From positions 1-41,561 of the forward strand of contig CADCLN010000035.1 of assembly GCA_902802265.1 (NCBI GenBank): 41,561 bases of DNA. The letters run 5' to 3'. This document shows, one piece after another, positions 618 through 33,602 of this stretch; position 1 is the stretch's first letter; every line of letters starts with the position of its first letter. The stretch comes from an uncultured Bacteroidales bacterium (GTDB lineage Bacteria; Bacteroidota; Bacteroidia; Bacteroidales; Bacteroidaceae). The translations under genes and the position numbers were made by a program. The notes beneath the pieces were generated by a model that had not been told where the DNA came from, ran no database searches, and saw only the letters and a list, made by a program, of their open reading frames with translations.

Positions 618-771
618 GTACGTCAGTGGCACTGCATTGTTGCCGTGGTGGCATAGTTATCTTGCTGCGGTGGCAATGCAGTGTTGCTGCGGTAGCAATG
701 CAGTGCCAGACGAGTAGCAATGCAGTGCCACCGCAGCGGGAGAACTTTGCTACGGAGATGGGAGAACTTTG
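618..771. repeat. 22-bp lattice repeat array A (7 units)
   Basis: Seven consecutive 22-bp units start at 618, 640, 662, 684, 706, 728 and 750. Each is an 11-bp linker of the general form CNNCNNCRGTG followed by an 11-bp word. Words here are GCACTGCATTG (once), its reverse complement form GCAATGCAGTG (three times) and GGAGAACTTTG (twice), plus one divergent unit. The same words recur in the arrays at 16632 and 33192. A seventh-unit continuation fades after 771. Short forward ORFs across it (626-814, 811-1029) look fortuitous because they follow the repeat words rather than any protein pattern. Confidence 0.85.
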
Positions 772-831
772 CTATTCAGATGAATGTACAAAGATTTTTG
801 AAAAAGAGATGTGATGTGTCTGTTTCAAGAA

Positions 832-14772: not shown

Positions 14773-16546
14773 ACTCCCTCAGTCCAGCGACGAAGTTTGG
14801 GCTAACGACGCTTTTGTGGGTGCCGACTACGTCAGCTACTCCATTCAGAATAATATCTGGTATGGCTGCGGACTCAACATCGCCATCGGCCTTGTCGGAA
14901 AAGACATGTCGCCCAATGCCAAGAAGTTATTTGTCAAGAATTCCTACTTTAATCCCGACGAAGCCTCGGACGACGTGAAGGACCAAGCCGTACTGGAGAC
15001 TGCTGCCGACACCGGTGGCGACATTCTGACTACCAACCCAACGTTTGCCGACATCGCCCACGCCGACTTCCACTTGCACCCAGGTTCGCTGCAAGCCCGA
15101 TACAAGACGGGTGACCCACGCTGGTTGACTCCTTACAGTGCTGCCCAAGCGCTGCCCGCCGACATCGTGCTGAATCTGCCCAAAGCTGAAAACATTACCG
15201 ACCGACTCAACGCAGCCATCGGCAAGGTAGATAAGGTGGGCGACATCACCATCTTGCTCGCCATGGGCGTGAAGTACACCATCACCCAGACCATCAAGTC
15301 CGCAGGGTCGGTCACCATCGTCGGCAACGGTTCGCAAGTGAACTGCACCAAAATCAACGGTCCACTCATTACCCTGGAAGGCACCGAAGCCTGCCCCAAC
15401 AATATGAACGCCGACGGAACAGTGGGTGACAAGAACCCCTTCTACCGACACATCGAAACAGTGTCCATCTCGGGCATCCAGACATCCCTGAAAAAAGTTT
15501 CCACCATCATCCGTGACACACAGAAAACCCTCGTGGACAACGTCTTCATCGACGAATGTGTGTTCGAAATAGAAGGCTCCGACAATCTGTTCGACTTCAC
15601 CGGCTACCCCGCCATCCTCGAAATATCCAACTCCACGCTGTGGTCGGAACGCGGACACACAGGGCATCTGCTCTCCGCTGGCGGACGCGTAAGGGACCTC
15701 GACAAAACGCAGAACACCCTCATCCAAGCCATCACCATCGACTACTCCACACTGTATCAAATATCGCGTGGCACTCAGCTCAACAATCTCGCCGCCAAAG
15801 CCAGCCGCACACTGAACCTCACGCTCACCAACTCCATCCTCTATAACTGCACCGCCAACGGACAGGAGGTCTGCGGATGGATGGGCGGAGCGGAGAGCGA
15901 CGGCCCCATAACCACTTATAACAAGAATACCTACTGGAACGATGGTGCTGTGCAGGCAGGCTGGATAGACGAAGACGAAGCCCTCGACGGACGTGACCTC
16001 ACCCGCACAGCCTTCCTGGCTGACCCAGGCTTTTACGACGTAGAGAGTGGCGACTTCGCCATCGCCAACCGCGCACCACAGGCTCAGGTACCCGAAAACC
16101 AGCCTCAGTACGGCGACCCCCACTGGCAGACTTGGCCCGCCGGCGACAGTTATGTCAACACTCAGTTCAACCCCGACCAGGCAACCCTTCTCACCGATAA
16201 GGTGTATGCCAATCCTGACACTCCCGTCACCCTCATCGTCACCCCCGCCACCGACTACCAGCTCGAAAGTGTCAGTGTCACCGACGAGCAGGGCAACTCC
16301 CTCCCCGTCGAAATGGCAGACTCGGAAGACTCGGCAGACTCGCAAACGCTCGTCTTCACCATGCCAGAAACGGATGTCACCATCATCGCTACCTTCACAC
16401 AAGAAAAAGCCGTTGGCATCGACTCCCCAACAGCCATCTCCGCACAGCACACCGACAGCCAGTGGTACACGCTGCACGGCATACCTGTGCAGAAACCCAC
16501 ACGAGGCATCTACATCCACAATAACAAGAAAGTGCTGGTCCGGTAG
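14773..16546 (+). pseudogene. 5'-truncated secreted beta-helix-like protein gene (DUF4957/DUF5123-like)
   Basis: An open frame begins right after a stop at 14770-14772, without a signal peptide, and its first readable residues (SSDEVWANDAFVGADYVSYS) already look like mid-protein. A GTG at 14816 could start 576 residues, but nothing supports it. Two parallel modules are visible: TNPTFADIAHADFHLHPGS with GDPRWL, and ADPGFYDVESGDFAIANRAP with GDPHW. Between them lie right-handed beta-helix-type repeats. The end (LHGIPVQKPTRGIYIHNNKK then VLVR) is a Prevotella-style C-terminal tail of exported proteins. The missing N-terminus and signal peptide argue for a 5' deletion placed directly behind the adenylation-enzyme gene. 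Confidence 0.65.
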
Positions 16547-16564
16547 CACGGTGAATACAGTCCA

Positions 16565-16615
16565 TAAAGTTTTGTGCCCTCAACGAAAACCGACGTTGAG
16601 GGCACAAAAACTTTA
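16565..16615. terminator. Strong bidirectional hairpin terminator
   Basis: Arms GTGCCCTCAACG (16574-16585) and CGTTGAGGGCAC (16593-16604) pair perfectly, extended by AAAGTTTT on the left and AAAACTTT on the right; the loop is a short A-rich run. The flanking A and T tracts suit termination on either strand. It closes the truncated gene ending at 16546. Confidence 0.8.
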
Positions 16616-16631
16616 CGAGAAAAATGAATTG

Positions 16632-16807
16632 GTGCTTCAGTGGCACTGCATTGTCACTTCAGTAGCAAAGTTCTCTCACTGCGGTGGCACTGCATTGCCA
16701 TTGCAGTAGCAAAGTTCTCTCACTTCAGTAGCACTGCATTGCCACAGAAGCGGCAAAGTTCTACTACTGGAGTCAGAGAACTTTGCCGCTGATTTCGGAG
16801 AACTGCC
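16632..16807. repeat. 22-bp lattice repeat array B (8 units)
   Basis: Eight back-to-back 22-bp units start at 16632, 16654, 16676, 16698, 16720, 16742, 16764 and 16786. Words are GCACTGCATTG (units 1, 3, 5), GCAAAGTTCTC or a one-base variant (units 2, 4, 6) and the inverted form AGAGAACTTTG (unit 7); unit 8 is divergent. The first five units alternate strictly between the two words. Linkers such as TCACTTCAGTA and TCACTGCGGTG are themselves short imperfect palindromes. The array fills the gap between a terminator and the 3' end of xth. Confidence 0.9.
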
Positions 16808-16823
16808 CTGGGCGGCAGTGGGG

Positions 16824-17612
16824 TCAGAAGTTTATTTCGACTGAAACAGGGCAGTGGTCGCTGCCGAGGATGTCGGTGTGGATGTGGGCTGCAACGAGCT
16901 GGGGTTGCAGACGGTCGGAGCAGAGCCAGTAGTCGATACGCCAACCTGCGTTTTTCTCACGGGCATGGAATCGGTAGGACCACCAGGAGTAAACATCGGT
17001 CTGAAGTGGATGGAAGTAGCGGAAGGTGTCGGTGAAACCTGCTGCGAGCAGCTGGGTGAACTTCTCGCGCTCTTCGTCGGTAAAGCCTGCGTTGTGATGG
17101 TTAGTCTTGGGGTTCTTGATGTCTATCTCCTGATGGGCTACATTCATATCGCCACAAACGAGCAGGGGCTTCTGCTGGTCGAGCTGCATGAGGTATTGAC
17201 GAAAGGCGTCGTCCCAGGTCATGCGATTATCCAGACGTCGGAGTCCGTCCTGCGAGTTGGGCGTATAGACGGTGACGAGGTAGAAGTCGGGGTATTCCAG
17301 TGTGATGACTCGTCCCTCGGTGTTCATGTCCATCCAGCCGTCGTTGGGCATGGCGTGAATGATGGTTTCGGGCAGTCCGTAGCTGACACTGAGCGGATGG
17401 AGACGGGTGTAGATAGCGGTGCCACTGTAGCCTTTCTTGTCGGCATAGTTCCAGTAGGATTCGTAGCCAGGGAACTGAAGGTCGAGCTGCCCGGCCTGCA
17501 TCTTGGTTTCTTGCAGGCAAAAGAAATCCGCGTCGAGCGCGGCAAAGGTCTCGCTGAAACCTTTACCTTGCACGGCGCGGAGTCCATTAACGTTCCAGGA
17601 AATGAATTTCAT
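16824..17612 (-). CDS. xth: Exodeoxyribonuclease III / AP endonuclease
   Basis: The 262-residue enzyme cleaves abasic sites and degrades 3' ends in base-excision repair. The ATG at 17612 opens with MKFISWNVNGLRAV, the family N-terminus. Catalytic motifs are visible: LQETKMQ (Glu), CGDMNVAH (Asp/Asn), NAGWRIDYWL and the terminal GSDHCPVSVEI (Asp-His). Longer frames upstream run into the CoA-transferase gene and are not used. It follows that gene after one base, so it is the last cistron of the 20980-16824 operon. Confidence 0.95.
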   Translation of the reverse strand: MKFISWNVNGLRAVQGKGFSETFAALDADFFCLQETKMQAGQLDLQFPGYESYWNYADKKGYSGTAIYTRLHPLSVSYGLPETIIHAMPNDGWMDMNTEGRVITLEYPDFYLVTVYTPNSQDGLRRLDNRMTWDDAFRQYLMQLDQQKPLLVCGDMNVAHQEIDIKNPKTNHHNAGFTDEEREKFTQLLAAGFTDTFRYFHPLQTDVYSWWSYRFHAREKNAGWRIDYWLCSDRLQPQLVAAHIHTDILGSDHCPVSVEINF

Positions 17613-27860: not shown

Positions 27861-28280
27861 ATGGAATTAGAAGGAAAAATCATTCAAGTGCTCGATGTCA
27901 GAGAAGGTACTTCTGCTCGCACAGGTGCCCCTTGGAAGGTACAGTCTTACGTTCTCGAAATCCCCAACGGTGCTGCATACCCACGCCGTATGGTGTTCGA
28001 AGTTTTCGGTGAAGACAAAATCTCGTTGTTCAACATTCAAGAGGGTCAGGAGGTAAAAGTCTCTTTCGACATTGACGCTCGTGAATACCAGGGACGCTGG
28101 TTCAACACCATCCGTGCCTGGAAAGTTGAACCTCCTACAGCCACCGCACCCGCAGCAGCAGCACCAGGTGTTGCACCCGCAGCACCACAGCCCGCAGCAG
28201 CACCCGTTGCTAACGAAGCCCCCGCTGTTTCTTTCCAACAAGAAATGAACGAAGGTTCTACAGACGACCTTCCATTCTAA
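27861..28280 (+). CDS. DUF3127 protein, OB-fold with SSB-like acidic tail
   Basis: The 139-residue product begins MELEGKIIQVLDVREGTSA and has the strand pattern of DUF3127 over residues 1-92 (VQSYVLEIPN, RMVFEVFGEDKI, VKVSFDIDAREYQGRWFNT), an OB-fold-like domain. Residues 93-130 are an Ala/Pro-rich linker and the end is DDLPF, the same tip that single-stranded DNA-binding proteins use to bind repair and replication partners. This suggests a nucleic-acid-binding role alongside the replisome, supported by divergence from dnaN; it is inference. The gene has its own promoter and a terminator at 28297. Confidence 0.85.
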   Translation: MELEGKIIQVLDVREGTSARTGAPWKVQSYVLEIPNGAAYPRRMVFEVFGEDKISLFNIQEGQEVKVSFDIDAREYQGRWFNTIRAWKVEPPTATAPAAAAPGVAPAAPQPAAAPVANEAPAVSFQQEMNEGSTDDLPF

Positions 28281-28296
28281 GGGGCAAGAAAGAAAT

Positions 28297-28330
28297 TAAA
28301 TCCGCATTTTATTGCGGGTTTAATTTTTTT
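28297..28330 (+). terminator. Intrinsic terminator of the DUF3127 gene
   Basis: A 10-bp stem TAAATCCGCA (28297-28306) with TGCGGGTTTA (28313-28322), one T-G wobble and a six-base loop, is followed by ATTTTTTT. It lies 16 bases after the stop codon. Confidence 0.85.
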
Positions 28331-28342
28331 GTATTACCTTTG
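28312..28342 (+). promoter_or_regulatory. tRNA-Arg promoter, overlapping the terminator
   Basis: TTG (28312-28314), 20 bases, then TACCTTTG (28335-28342), 26 bases upstream of the tRNA. The -33 box is part of the loop and right arm of the preceding terminator hairpin. Confidence 0.65.
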
Positions 28343-28368
28343 CTGCGTTTTTCCAGTCATATTATGCC

Positions 28369-28440
28369 GCTCCCATAGTTCAATGGATAGAACAAATCTC
28401 TCCTAAAGATTAGATTCGAGTTCGATTCTCGATGGGAGTA
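28369..28440 (+). tRNA. tRNA-Arg (anticodon CCT)
   Basis: A full cloverleaf can be folded: acceptor GCTCCCA with TGGGAGT, D arm GTTC/GAAC, anticodon stem AATCT/AGATT enclosing the loop CTCCTAA (anticodon CCT, reading AGG), variable AGAT, and T arm TCGAG/CTCGA around TTCGATT. The discriminator base is A and CCA is not encoded, as is common in Bacteroidota. Confidence 0.93.
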
Positions 28441-28452
28441 CGCGAGAAAACA

Positions 28453-28605
28453 AAAACTTTATTCCTCTTTGCCGACACCTGCAAGCGCCAGCAGGTTCAA
28501 TGTACTATTGGGGGTGAAGACCGCCTGTATCTCAACGTATTCAAGGCTGATGATGTATCTGCCACCCTCTACGACCAGAAGGAAAAGCAAGTGATGGTGC
28601 TTTAA
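28453..28605 (+). pseudogene. Remnant of a type-B carboxylesterase
   Basis: One frame reads ADTCKRQQVQCTIGGEDRL, then YLNVFKADD, then YDQKEKQVMVL and a stop at 28603-28605. GEDRLYLNVFK matches GEDCLYLNLWK of the next gene, and YDQKEKQVMVL matches YDQKDKQVMVL near that gene's C-terminus. So the beginning, a middle motif and the end of an esterase have been joined by large internal deletions. There is no start codon. It begins 12 bases after the tRNA. Confidence 0.7.
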
Positions 28606-28639
28606 CAAAATTTATTAACAACTAAAAACAGGAAAAACA

Positions 28640-30174
28640 ATGAGTGCGATTGAAGAGAAACTGATGGCCAAGTACGGTGAGAACAAGCCGATTGCCGACC
28701 ATAATTATGATGCGTCGCTGGCCACCAAGTGTGTGAATGGAACTTTCGTGGGCAAAAAAGTGGAGAACATCATTTCCTATAAAGGTATTCCCTTTGTGGG
28801 TCAGCAGCCAGTGGGCACCCTGCGTTGGAAAGCTCCTGTGGACATTACGCCAAACGACGGGGTCTATGAGGCCTATTACTACGGGAAGAGCCCCGTCCAG
28901 TCACCAGGTGACCCTGCTGCCCTTTATCCTATGGGTGAAGACTGCTTGTATCTGAACTTGTGGAAGTCGGACGACGCTGCTGCCAAGAAGCCGGTCATCG
29001 TGTGGATTTACGGCGGCGGCTTCGAGGTAGGTGGAACGACTGATCCACAGTACGATTGCCACAACTTTGTGAAGGAGAACCCCGACGTCATTGTCGTCAC
29101 CATCGCTTACAGGATTAGCTTCTTCGGTTTCCTGCATCTGTCCCACCTGTCGGACGGCAAGGACTATCAGGATGCTGCCAATCTGGGACTCATGGACCAC
29201 CCGACAATGTGACCATCTGGGGCGAATCTGCCGGTGGTGGAAGCTGTACGCTGCTTCCGCTGGTCAAGGGCTCTCATCAATATTTCAAGCGTGTCATCTC
29301 ACAGAGTGGTGCTCCTGGTCAGACGAGATCACCGGAGCAGGCTATTGCGTGTACGAATAAATTGATGAAGGAACTCGACTGCAAGACCGTTGCCGACCTG
29401 ATGACGGTCAGTGCAGAGAAGATTGCAGAAGTGTGGACGCACCTGTTCGGATTTTATCAGACACTCGGTATGCCCACATTCCCGGAGCGGGACGGTCGCT
29501 ACCTGCCACTGAACACGTGGGAGGCATACGCCAATGGAGCAGCAAAGGATATAGTGTTCCTGCAGGGCTGCAACAAGGACGAAATGAACACCTTCCTGGC
29601 AGGTGTCGGATTGGACACCTGGAACACATGGGCCAAGAAACGCTTGGAGGAAAAACTGGCTCGGTTGACGGACAAGGAGAGAGAACTGGTGATGGGCTAT
29701 CTCAACGACATCCAGGGAGAAAGTTACGAACCCACCGTCAACATCTTCAGCCAGATCATGTTTGTCGCACCGCAAATCAAACTGTCCGAGCTGCAAGCCA
29801 AAGCGGGTGGCAAGTCATACACTTACTACTACAGGGTGGAATCGTCGCAGCCATTTATCAAAGCCGGTCATGCCTCAGAGTTGTCGGTCGTGTTTGCCCA
29901 TCCGGAAATCGACGACTTCACAGGACGATTGTACGACGAGGCTTTCTGCAAGACCATCCGTAAGATGTGGGTGCAGTTCGCCAAGACCGGCAATCCGTCA
30001 CTCACTGCCGCAGAATCTCCCGACGGGAAAGCGAAAGATTGGCCCATCTACGACCAGAAAGACAAGCAGGTGATGGTGCTCGACGAATTCGACATCCATC
30101 CGGCAACGGAAGCTGACATGAAGATAGTAGATTGGGAGAGGACCTATTTCCTTACCAACTACTATATGCCTTGA
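28640..30174 (+). pseudogene. Type-B carboxylesterase, frameshifted by an internal deletion
   Basis: The first frame (28640-29212) encodes the N-terminal half (GKKVENIISYKGIPFVGQQP, GEDCLYLNLWK, VIVWIYGGGFEVG oxyanion region, AANLGLMD) and then stops. The second frame (29209-30174) begins PDNVTIWGESAGGGS-like and carries the nucleophile Ser in GESAGG, the acidic residue in GCNKDEMN and the His in AGHASEL. In the family, LGLxDQ is followed by about 20 residues before GGDPDNV; these are missing here and the frame is shifted, so a deletion of roughly 55-60 bases lies at about 29195-29203. No signal peptide is present. A tandem remnant lies just upstream. Confidence 0.75.
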
Positions 30175-33191: not shown

Positions 33192-33422
33192 AGTTTCGAG
33201 TAGCACAGTTCTCCCACTTCAGTGGCACAGTTCTGCCGCTGCGGTGGGAGAACTGTGCCACTCGTCTGGCACTGCATTGCCACTGCTGCGGCAGAACTGT
33301 GCTACCCAGACGGCAGAACTGTGCGACGGCAGTAGGAGAACTTTGCTGCCGAAACGGGAAAGCGGTTCCACAGAGGGAGCTGTGGAACCGCTGTGGAACC
33401 GCTGTGGAACCGCTGTGGAACC
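33192..33422. repeat. 22-bp lattice repeat array C (9 units) running into an 11-bp tandem repeat
   Basis: Nine 22-bp units start at 33192, 33214, 33236, 33258, 33280, 33302, 33324, 33346 and 33368. Words are GCACAGTTCTC/G, its inverted form AGAACTGTGC (three times), GCACTGCATTG and GGAGAACTTTG. From 33379 the lattice collapses to four exact copies of the 11-mer GCTGTGGAACC (33379-33422) without changing phase. The array starts 15 bases after the broken amidohydrolase gene. Confidence 0.88.
33361..33392. terminator. Perfect 13-bp hairpin inside array C
   Basis: AGCGGTTCCACAG (33361-33373) and CTGTGGAACCGCT (33380-33392) pair perfectly around AGGGAG. A further copy of the left arm occurs at 33491-33503. 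It could act as a factor-dependent stop or a structural element; there is no U tract, so terminator function is uncertain. Confidence 0.45.
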
Positions 33423-33578
33423 GCAACTAAAGGACTAATAAAATGTATTTATTGGCTGACAATCTGTATATTATTATTATTGCTCTCATAAGCGGTTCCA
33501 CAGAACCACTGAAAATAGCAAAAATTGAGGGGTATAAAAAATAAAAAAGTTTTTTTAGAAAGGAAGTGGGATTTCCAG

Positions 33579-33602
33579 TGGAACTGTGGAACTGTGGAAC
33601 CG
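33579..33602. repeat. 8-bp tandem repeat TGGAACTG
   Basis: Three head-to-tail units (TGGAACTG, TGGAACTG, TGGAACCG) echo the GTGGAACC motif of array C. The surrounding 33423-33658 holds only AT-rich DNA and these echoes; the reverse frame over 33427-33840 has no protein-like features. Confidence 0.7.

Follow-up and report, generated by a model that had tools for sequence, protein, structure and literature searches.

The intergenic stretch at positions 16640 to 16807 of the window, that is, of the whole 41,561-nt stretch of DNA analysed here, raises a simple question: what are short, exchangeable words doing at an exact 22-bp period between two genes, and are they peculiar to one genome? We refer to this stretch as array B. 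Each of its units has the frame GTRG, a 10-bp word, CYRC and four further bases (NNNN). The array and its surroundings were annotated as follows.

16640..16807, + strand: array B, seven good 22-bp units plus a decayed unit 8
16640, 16662, 16684, 16706, 16728, 16750 and 16772: starts of the array B units, one every 22 bp; the decayed unit starts at 16794
16644-16653, 16666-16675, 16688-16697, 16710-16719, 16732-16741 and 16754-16763: forward words of array B
16776-16785: inverted word of array B; 16798-16807: its decayed word
16749..16790, no strand assigned: the single inward flip of array B, where CAAAGTTCTA faces GAGAACTTTG
16562..16618, no strand assigned: a separate hairpin immediately left of array B, seen by eye, TAAAGTTTT.GTGCCCTCAACG / CGTTGAGGGCACAAAAACTTTA
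14816..16546, + strand: a DUF5123-domain gene with its 3' end toward array B from the left
16824..17612, - strand: a gene to the right of array B and convergent on it, of the Exo_endo_phos family and exodeoxyribonuclease III-like

Two word families make up array B, W1 (CACTGCATTG) and W2 (CAAAGTTCTC). Units 1 to 6 read CACTGCATTG, CAAAGTTCTC, CACTGCATTG, CAAAGTTCTC, CACTGCATTG, CAAAGTTCTA; unit 7 is an inverted W2 (GAGAACTTTG) and unit 8 is decayed (GAGAACTGCC). The sequence-only reading of this DNA had described eight exact 22-bp units, with two words strictly alternating in units 1 to 5. The 22-bp spacing does hold throughout, but only seven units are good, and the alternation reaches unit 6 before W2 reverses at unit 7. 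Word inversion, usually as one flip per array, was absent from that description. W1 is close to its own reverse complement, so that its orientation is often hard to assign. TRF reported array B with a score of 180 and a period of 44 bp. The flip stretch is predicted to fold into a hairpin (-17.6 kcal/mol as single-stranded DNA, z -6.3). The right arm of the separate hairpin is similar to the leader on the left of another array in the window, array A, and an array A query aligns with 16587-16786.

Arrays A and C show the frame and words of array B, in agreement with the earlier claim that the same vocabulary recurs in two other arrays.

626..775, + strand: array A, seven units in the order 1+ 2+ 1- 1- 1- 2- 2-
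33200..33374, - strand: array C, about seven units, with variants such as CACAGTTCTC / CAGAACTGTG
33379-33424, and also 33578-33600: 11-bp tandem GCTGTGGAACC beside array C

The family proved to be dispersed across the genome of the window (G000). BLAST of array B against this genome gave 123 matches (40 of 91 candidates scored). The arrays examined numbered 40, comprising 37 places elsewhere and the three arrays in the window. About 18 more places, some of them short matches, bring the family to ~58 places. The exact word W2 (GCAAAGTTCTC) was present in 104 copies, compared with three for a reversed control. Among the 100 exact W2 matches listed, all 40 same-orientation neighbour distances of up to 120 bp were multiples of 22, which bears out the fixed lattice; 22 of the 100 had no exact neighbour within 200 bp. 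The exchangeability of the words was also supported. Strict alternation held in array B but did not carry over to the genome as a whole, where 152 neighbouring pairs in the 40 arrays differed in word family and 108 did not (130.4 different on shuffling), nor to the three families found in other species, each of which uses one main word. Word alternation in G000 is a tendency and not a rule.

These three families belong to other species of the same genus (G014, G009 and G013), where dispersed arrays are built of words unrelated to those of G000 and follow the same grammar. G000 and G014 keep a spacing of 22 bp, G009 and G013 one of 23 bp. Across the families, including that of G000, words span 10-17 bp in both orientations and linkers 4-12 bp. 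For the 12-bp word of G014 (ACGCAGAACTCT), 75 of 80 distances were 22 in a free scan of 21 arrays. With no spacing imposed, all same-orientation distances equalled 23 for the words of G009 (GCACCCTGCGC, 28/28) and G013 (CGTACCCCTCGRCTACG, 36/36). In G013, 22 places were examined of 40 candidates scored, and the exact 15-mer was found in 77 copies, compared with one for the control; 18 of the 77 had no exact neighbour within 200 bp. The genome collection contained one further record with the two-word pattern of G000 itself, contig CAJONZ010000040.1 from a rumen Bacteroidaceae MAG (probably G014); there the two G000 words form a two-unit stretch. The family is therefore not confined to a single assembly, as had been named as a reason to dismiss it: similar arrays with other words occur in assemblies of other species, and G000's own two words recur in one of them.

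Orientation with one inward flip is a stronger rule than alternation. Within an array, words keep one orientation up to a flip and the opposite one after it; an array has no more than one flip, and it points inward. On-lattice arrays obeyed this rule in 33/33 cases in G014, 16/17 in G009 and 22/22 in G013. For W2 in G000, both orientations were present in 31 arrays, and in 28 of these the forward words came first and the inverted ones after a single flip (3 violations versus 25.8 when shuffled; ordered pairs 153 versus 5). W1 fitted worse, with 16/26 arrays obeying (10 violations versus 18.1 when shuffled, P 0.0012). Exact-word scans, which are independent of any flip in the query, yielded 13 +- and zero -+ opposite neighbours within 120 bp in G000 (among the 100 matches listed), with inward pairs at 23, 45, 67 or 89 bp, that is, in 22-bp steps. 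In G013, the counts were 14 and one, the outward pair being 86 bp apart. The BLAST queries that recovered the arrays contain a flip themselves in the case of G014 and G009, and none in that of G013. Arrays without a flip obey trivially (12 of the 22 in G013, where flips occur in 10, and one in G009). The 33/33 of G014 was obtained with a lattice chain that permitted only 22 or 44 and excluded the extra weak off-lattice hits borne by L064, L069 and L070; in the free scan, 18/21 arrays obeyed. The register of the flip was 22 in 33/33 G014 arrays under the same chain and 23 in 9/10 G013 arrays. In G009, opposite neighbours were 21 bp apart in 15 of 17 cases; of the other two, one pair was 44 bp apart and one, pointing outward, 25 bp. 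The single G009 array that breaks the rule, L186, opens with a weak word at a distance of 25 bp.

What was observed, then, is conserved words, constant spacing, variable linkers and one inward flip, at intergenic positions, in four species with different words. We tentatively favour, at somewhat short of an even chance, reading the arrays as intergenic tandem sites for a putative DNA-binding protein that differs in specificity from one species to another. This reading is preferred because the words are conserved, the spacing is constant and the linkers are poorly conserved, and because 21-23 bp corresponds to two helical turns. Each word would be one protein site. The lattice would align these sites along the same side of the double helix, and the inward flip would form a dyad between the two oppositely oriented runs. 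From species to species, the geometry would stay the same while the words and the protein reading them change. We infer that such a protein could read the words and stack along the lattice, with a role in chromosome organisation or insulation between genes. The two-turn interpretation offered earlier gains from the fact that linkers differ in sequence and not in length: linker identity between arrays was 36-54% (26-31% expected from composition). Word identity between loci was 90-91%, a figure inflated by the gathering of words by similarity to a consensus, with 2 of 11, 4 of 17 and 3 of 12 mismatches tolerated; with this reservation, the conserved word, constant spacing and freer linker of a phased array were all found.

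Several observations count against phased binding sites. To our knowledge, a reader protein whose specificity has been replaced inside one genus would be unusual. The exact words lacking close exact neighbours in G000 and G013 do not favour it either. Linkers in G014 have a vocabulary of their own, with one sequence making up 12/81, and those of G013 were more alike inside an array than between arrays (0.61 versus 0.35; no such excess in G009 or G014), which is what tandem duplication would give; both findings speak against the reading.

We also scanned 20 further same-genus genomes, G009 and G013 included, for 21-24 bp repeats, using one or two contigs each and up to 20 kb per contig, with some stretches very short or masked. 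Other such repeats were present, and G009 and G013 were examined in depth. Pooled intergenic near-repeat spacings numbered 10, 15 and 19 at 21, 22 and 23 bp, compared with 1.3, 3.0 and 1.7 in first-order Markov resamples, and 14 of the 20 genomes contributed to this peak, which favours phased sites. Other spacings were raised as well, namely 14 bp (16 versus 1.3, or 6 versus 1.3 with a stricter filter) and 24 bp (8 versus 1.3), and these count against the phased-binding reading. In 17 genomes from other families of the order, there were 13 such hits in 45 kb, from five genomes and several of them AT-rich.

Individual lattices took various forms. In G054, from another family of the order, a 23-bp tandem of TTGTCAATTTTTATCTCACAATC occupies two gaps, at ~8240 and ~9645 of L223, with every copy in one orientation. 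Palindromic words occur in L099 (G019; ATCGACCACGACGTGGTCG at 23 bp) and L114 (G012; CGGTGTGACTCACACC at 24 bp), and the lattice constant may be fixed per species. Next to an exoIII gene, L126 (G067) and L128 (G001) bear near-palindromic words (TCGCGTAGGGAT, TCCCTAGGGGAT and similar ones) at a 21-bp spacing, separated by AT-rich linkers; by eye, the site is the same in the two species. The exoIII locus of G014 carries a plain terminator (by eye, in a set of 30 loci viewed of 43 genomes with a match).

The chief rival of phased binding sites is a non-autonomous hairpin element resembling REPINs or BrickBuilt, copied by a transposase that reads the words, drifting by lineage and without host function. 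We consider it possible, though doubtful. In its favour are the dozens of intergenic copies scattered over each genome, with a sequence specific to the lineage, as well as the hairpin at the flip and the recurring linkers. G000 provides further support: leaders are shared by 25/40 arrays, which looks like element copying and counts against phased sites, and at six loci in addition to array A, leader and array together are alike over ~360-420 bp. The leader of array A, on its left, is common to other arrays. The other three families behave differently. Shared flanks (up to 250 bp) were found in 0/17 G009, 0/22 G013 and 4/33 G014 arrays, leaving 68 of 72 arrays outside G000 without one, and this together with the low linker identity makes them unlike recent copies. 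Conservation of the outer flanks fades over ~8-16 bp with no sharp ends, again not as a mobile repeat would predict.

The leaders themselves vary in content. That of array A holds an 11-bp tandem of AAAGTTACATT at 455-497, and similar leaders precede several other G000 arrays. By eye, an array C-type leader in loci L028 and L045 bears other words (GTGCCTAAGC, GGTTCCACGTC), and the facing partner of the leader word appears to change too, as though the leader exchanged words.

The suspected spreader was a Y1 transposase, whose gene has an array ~300 bp away in G000 and ~900 bp away in G014. Y1_Tnp matches numbered two in G000, one in G014 and none in G009 or G013 (drafts ~91% and 83% complete), the last result being at odds with a mobile repeat. 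One of the G000 matches hit the REP-transposase NCBIfam model with 33 bits, under the cut-off of 80. The IS200-like Y1 genes in question, at L060 (G000 C23:37777) and L153 (G014 C10:12640), both have an array within ~1 kb; that at L060 carries long inverted ends of its own, and the second G000 gene is at C31 (L061). We viewed the neighbourhoods of nine of 25 Y1 matches, in eight genomes. Two had arrays of known words, four (G065, G061, G019 and one of two in G033) had some 21-23 bp repeats and three had none. Given these neighbourhoods, a Y1/RAYT transposase as general spreader is unsupported. A phage or plasmid origin was also rejected, with no match in viral contigs (two patterns) or in plasmids or phages (array B only).

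Folding at the flip bears on two further explanations. The mean RNA energy of flip pairs was -16.2 in G014 (33 pairs), -21.1 in G009 (15) and -31.0 in G013 (9), compared with -4.4, -9.9 and -10.6 for same-orientation pairs. Two stretches without a complete flip gave z +1.6 (L071:1036-1092, which ends before the inverted word) and z 0.6 (L198, with no flip). Words facing each other across the flip covary in G014 (19 mismatches versus 30.5 when shuffled, P ~0.0001), which points to a hairpin and against phased protein sites. Facing words leaned the same way, not significantly, in G009 (14 versus 16.7, P 0.10) and G013 (9 versus 12.1, P 0.16), and off-register opposite words in G009 scored equally well (17 versus 22.1, P 0.02). 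In G000, word subtype is homogeneous inside arrays in both orientations, so that pairing is indistinguishable from common origin.

One of these is RNA structure, the arrays acting as hairpins in 3' UTRs that would terminate or shield transcripts. The covariation and strong predicted folding would fit, as would a bias toward gene ends. Of 40 G000 arrays, 33 are flanked by genes called on both sides with a home-made caller (13 convergent, 16 tandem and 4 divergent gaps), and the array lies nearer the 3' end in 13/16 tandem gaps. None of the 40 shares more than 20 bp with a called gene, a point in favour of phased sites. In G014, where 18/21 arrays were classified, nine gaps were tandem (seven nearer the 3' end, one tie), five convergent and four divergent; with only 5/18 convergent, the convergent excess is not general. 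We nevertheless regard an RNA-level role as improbable. No U-run followed the hairpin in arrays inspected by eye, a simple scan found a terminator-like hairpin between gene and array on four of 19 G014 sides and none on 15, and forward and inverted words were unequal in number in most arrays with both (30/33 in G014, 11/16 in G009, 10/10 in G013). Nor was there covariation in G014 among nested pairs (23 versus 20.5), off-register pairs or same-orientation pairs.

A neutral satellite, in which quasi-palindrome templated mutation and slippage keep meaningless arrays symmetric, would account for the restriction of G014 homogenisation to words facing across the flip and for the likeness of linkers inside G013 arrays. 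It leaves one word family over unlinked loci, and poorly conserved linkers of constant length, unexplained, and we consider it very improbable. Both RNA structure and template-switching symmetry are less likely than phased sites or a mobile repeat.

To compare array positions between species, the flanking genes of the 21 G014 arrays were matched to the G000 stretches, about a tenth of that genome. A plausible orthologue adjoined the G014 array at five loci, and in four of them the G000 orthologue also adjoins an array; at the fifth (L075 versus window 28250-28660), no G000 array was seen. At one of the four, L069-L013, the orthologue is only 58% identical, and since the G000 stretches were picked for holding arrays, we regard only L046/L082-L035 as firm. 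The pairs L066-L016 (repeated domain), L070-L030 (weak) and L069-L040 (35%) were dropped. At one G014 locus, two units of G000 vocabulary stand a few bases past the stop codon of a gene, and G014's own array follows 58 bp onward. Over 121 aa, this gene is 83% identical to the one that adjoins the L035 array in G000. Old and new vocabularies are adjacent at this G014 locus. This locus is offered in favour of a wider version of the phased-site reading: a genus-wide, perhaps order-wide, address system in which a fast-changing reader, a protein or guide-directed complex, would act in each species on dozens of intergenic arrays, the word being replaced wholesale, the two-turn lattice and single inward flip being kept, and old arrays being rewritten in place. 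In this full form we think it unlikely. If the geometry is indeed kept while the word is replaced, the specificity of the reader would have changed repeatedly within one genus. Nature would then have run an experiment in how a protein and its DNA sites co-evolve, and the arrays would offer a way into the organisation of Bacteroidales chromosomes. With the words listed, a reader could be found species by species.

Finally, we compared the arrays with known systems. Iterons are phased direct repeats of ~22 bp, or two helical turns, with a conserved word and a freer linker, and they are found at replication origins, grouped in a single cluster or a small number of them; the arrays described here differ in occupying dozens of chromosomal loci and in having an inward flip. 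No Rfam family was matched at threshold: 13 hits in window 16400-17000 were all below the gathering score, and there were none at gathering in L062, L071, L075, L111, L198 or L026. As far as tested in this stretch and six related loci, the arrays are thus not a known annotated repeat family, the other ground on which they might have been dismissed. In the open-licence literature searched, no such lattices were found in Prevotella or other Bacteroidaceae. CRISPR repeats, described as 24-48 bp long with regular unique spacers (PMC3733652), were rejected on architecture, the words here being shorter, at 10-17 bp, and in both orientations, with linkers of 4-12 bp.

According to the published descriptions consulted, the likeness to REP, BIME and REPIN-RAYT systems lies in multi-copy intergenic palindromic repeats with lineage-specific sequence (PMC3733652, PMC6006769, PMC3116915), and the GTRG frame of G000 recalls the GTAG tag. 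Hairpin units and inverted pairs, as in REPINs, were found at the flip, alongside additional words that lack a partner. BIMEs are described as containing REPs in alternating orientation (PMC2817692), whereas the arrays here have several same-orientation words and then one flip, and two array-bearing genomes have no Y1 match.

The sequence-only reading knew of no named bacterial repeat of this kind. This needs qualifying, as BrickBuilt, a minisatellite-MITE of Porphyromonas gingivalis, has fixed 23-nt repeats in the same bacterial order, although its anatomy as described does not match (PMC4596501). It is the closest named relative, compared here by its description. The account of it gives 19 dispersed intergenic copies with predicted stem-loops, direct repeats flanked by a leader on one side and a tail on the other, IS5-like terminal inverted repeats, and up to 22.8 repeats per element with 0-6% indels (PMC4596501). 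By that account, the two share intergenic, dispersed copies, species-limited sequence and predicted stem-loops. The 23-nt unit matches only G009 and G013, G000 and G014 being at 22 bp, and shared flanks of the leader or tail kind occur mainly in G000 (25/40, versus 4/33, 0/17 and 0/22 in G014, G009 and G013). Compared with BrickBuilt as described, the arrays are short, constant in spacing and flipped once, mostly with no shared flank outside G000. We regard them as a variant of intergenic interspersed repeats, with a chance that they represent a new kind of chromosomal binding-site system.
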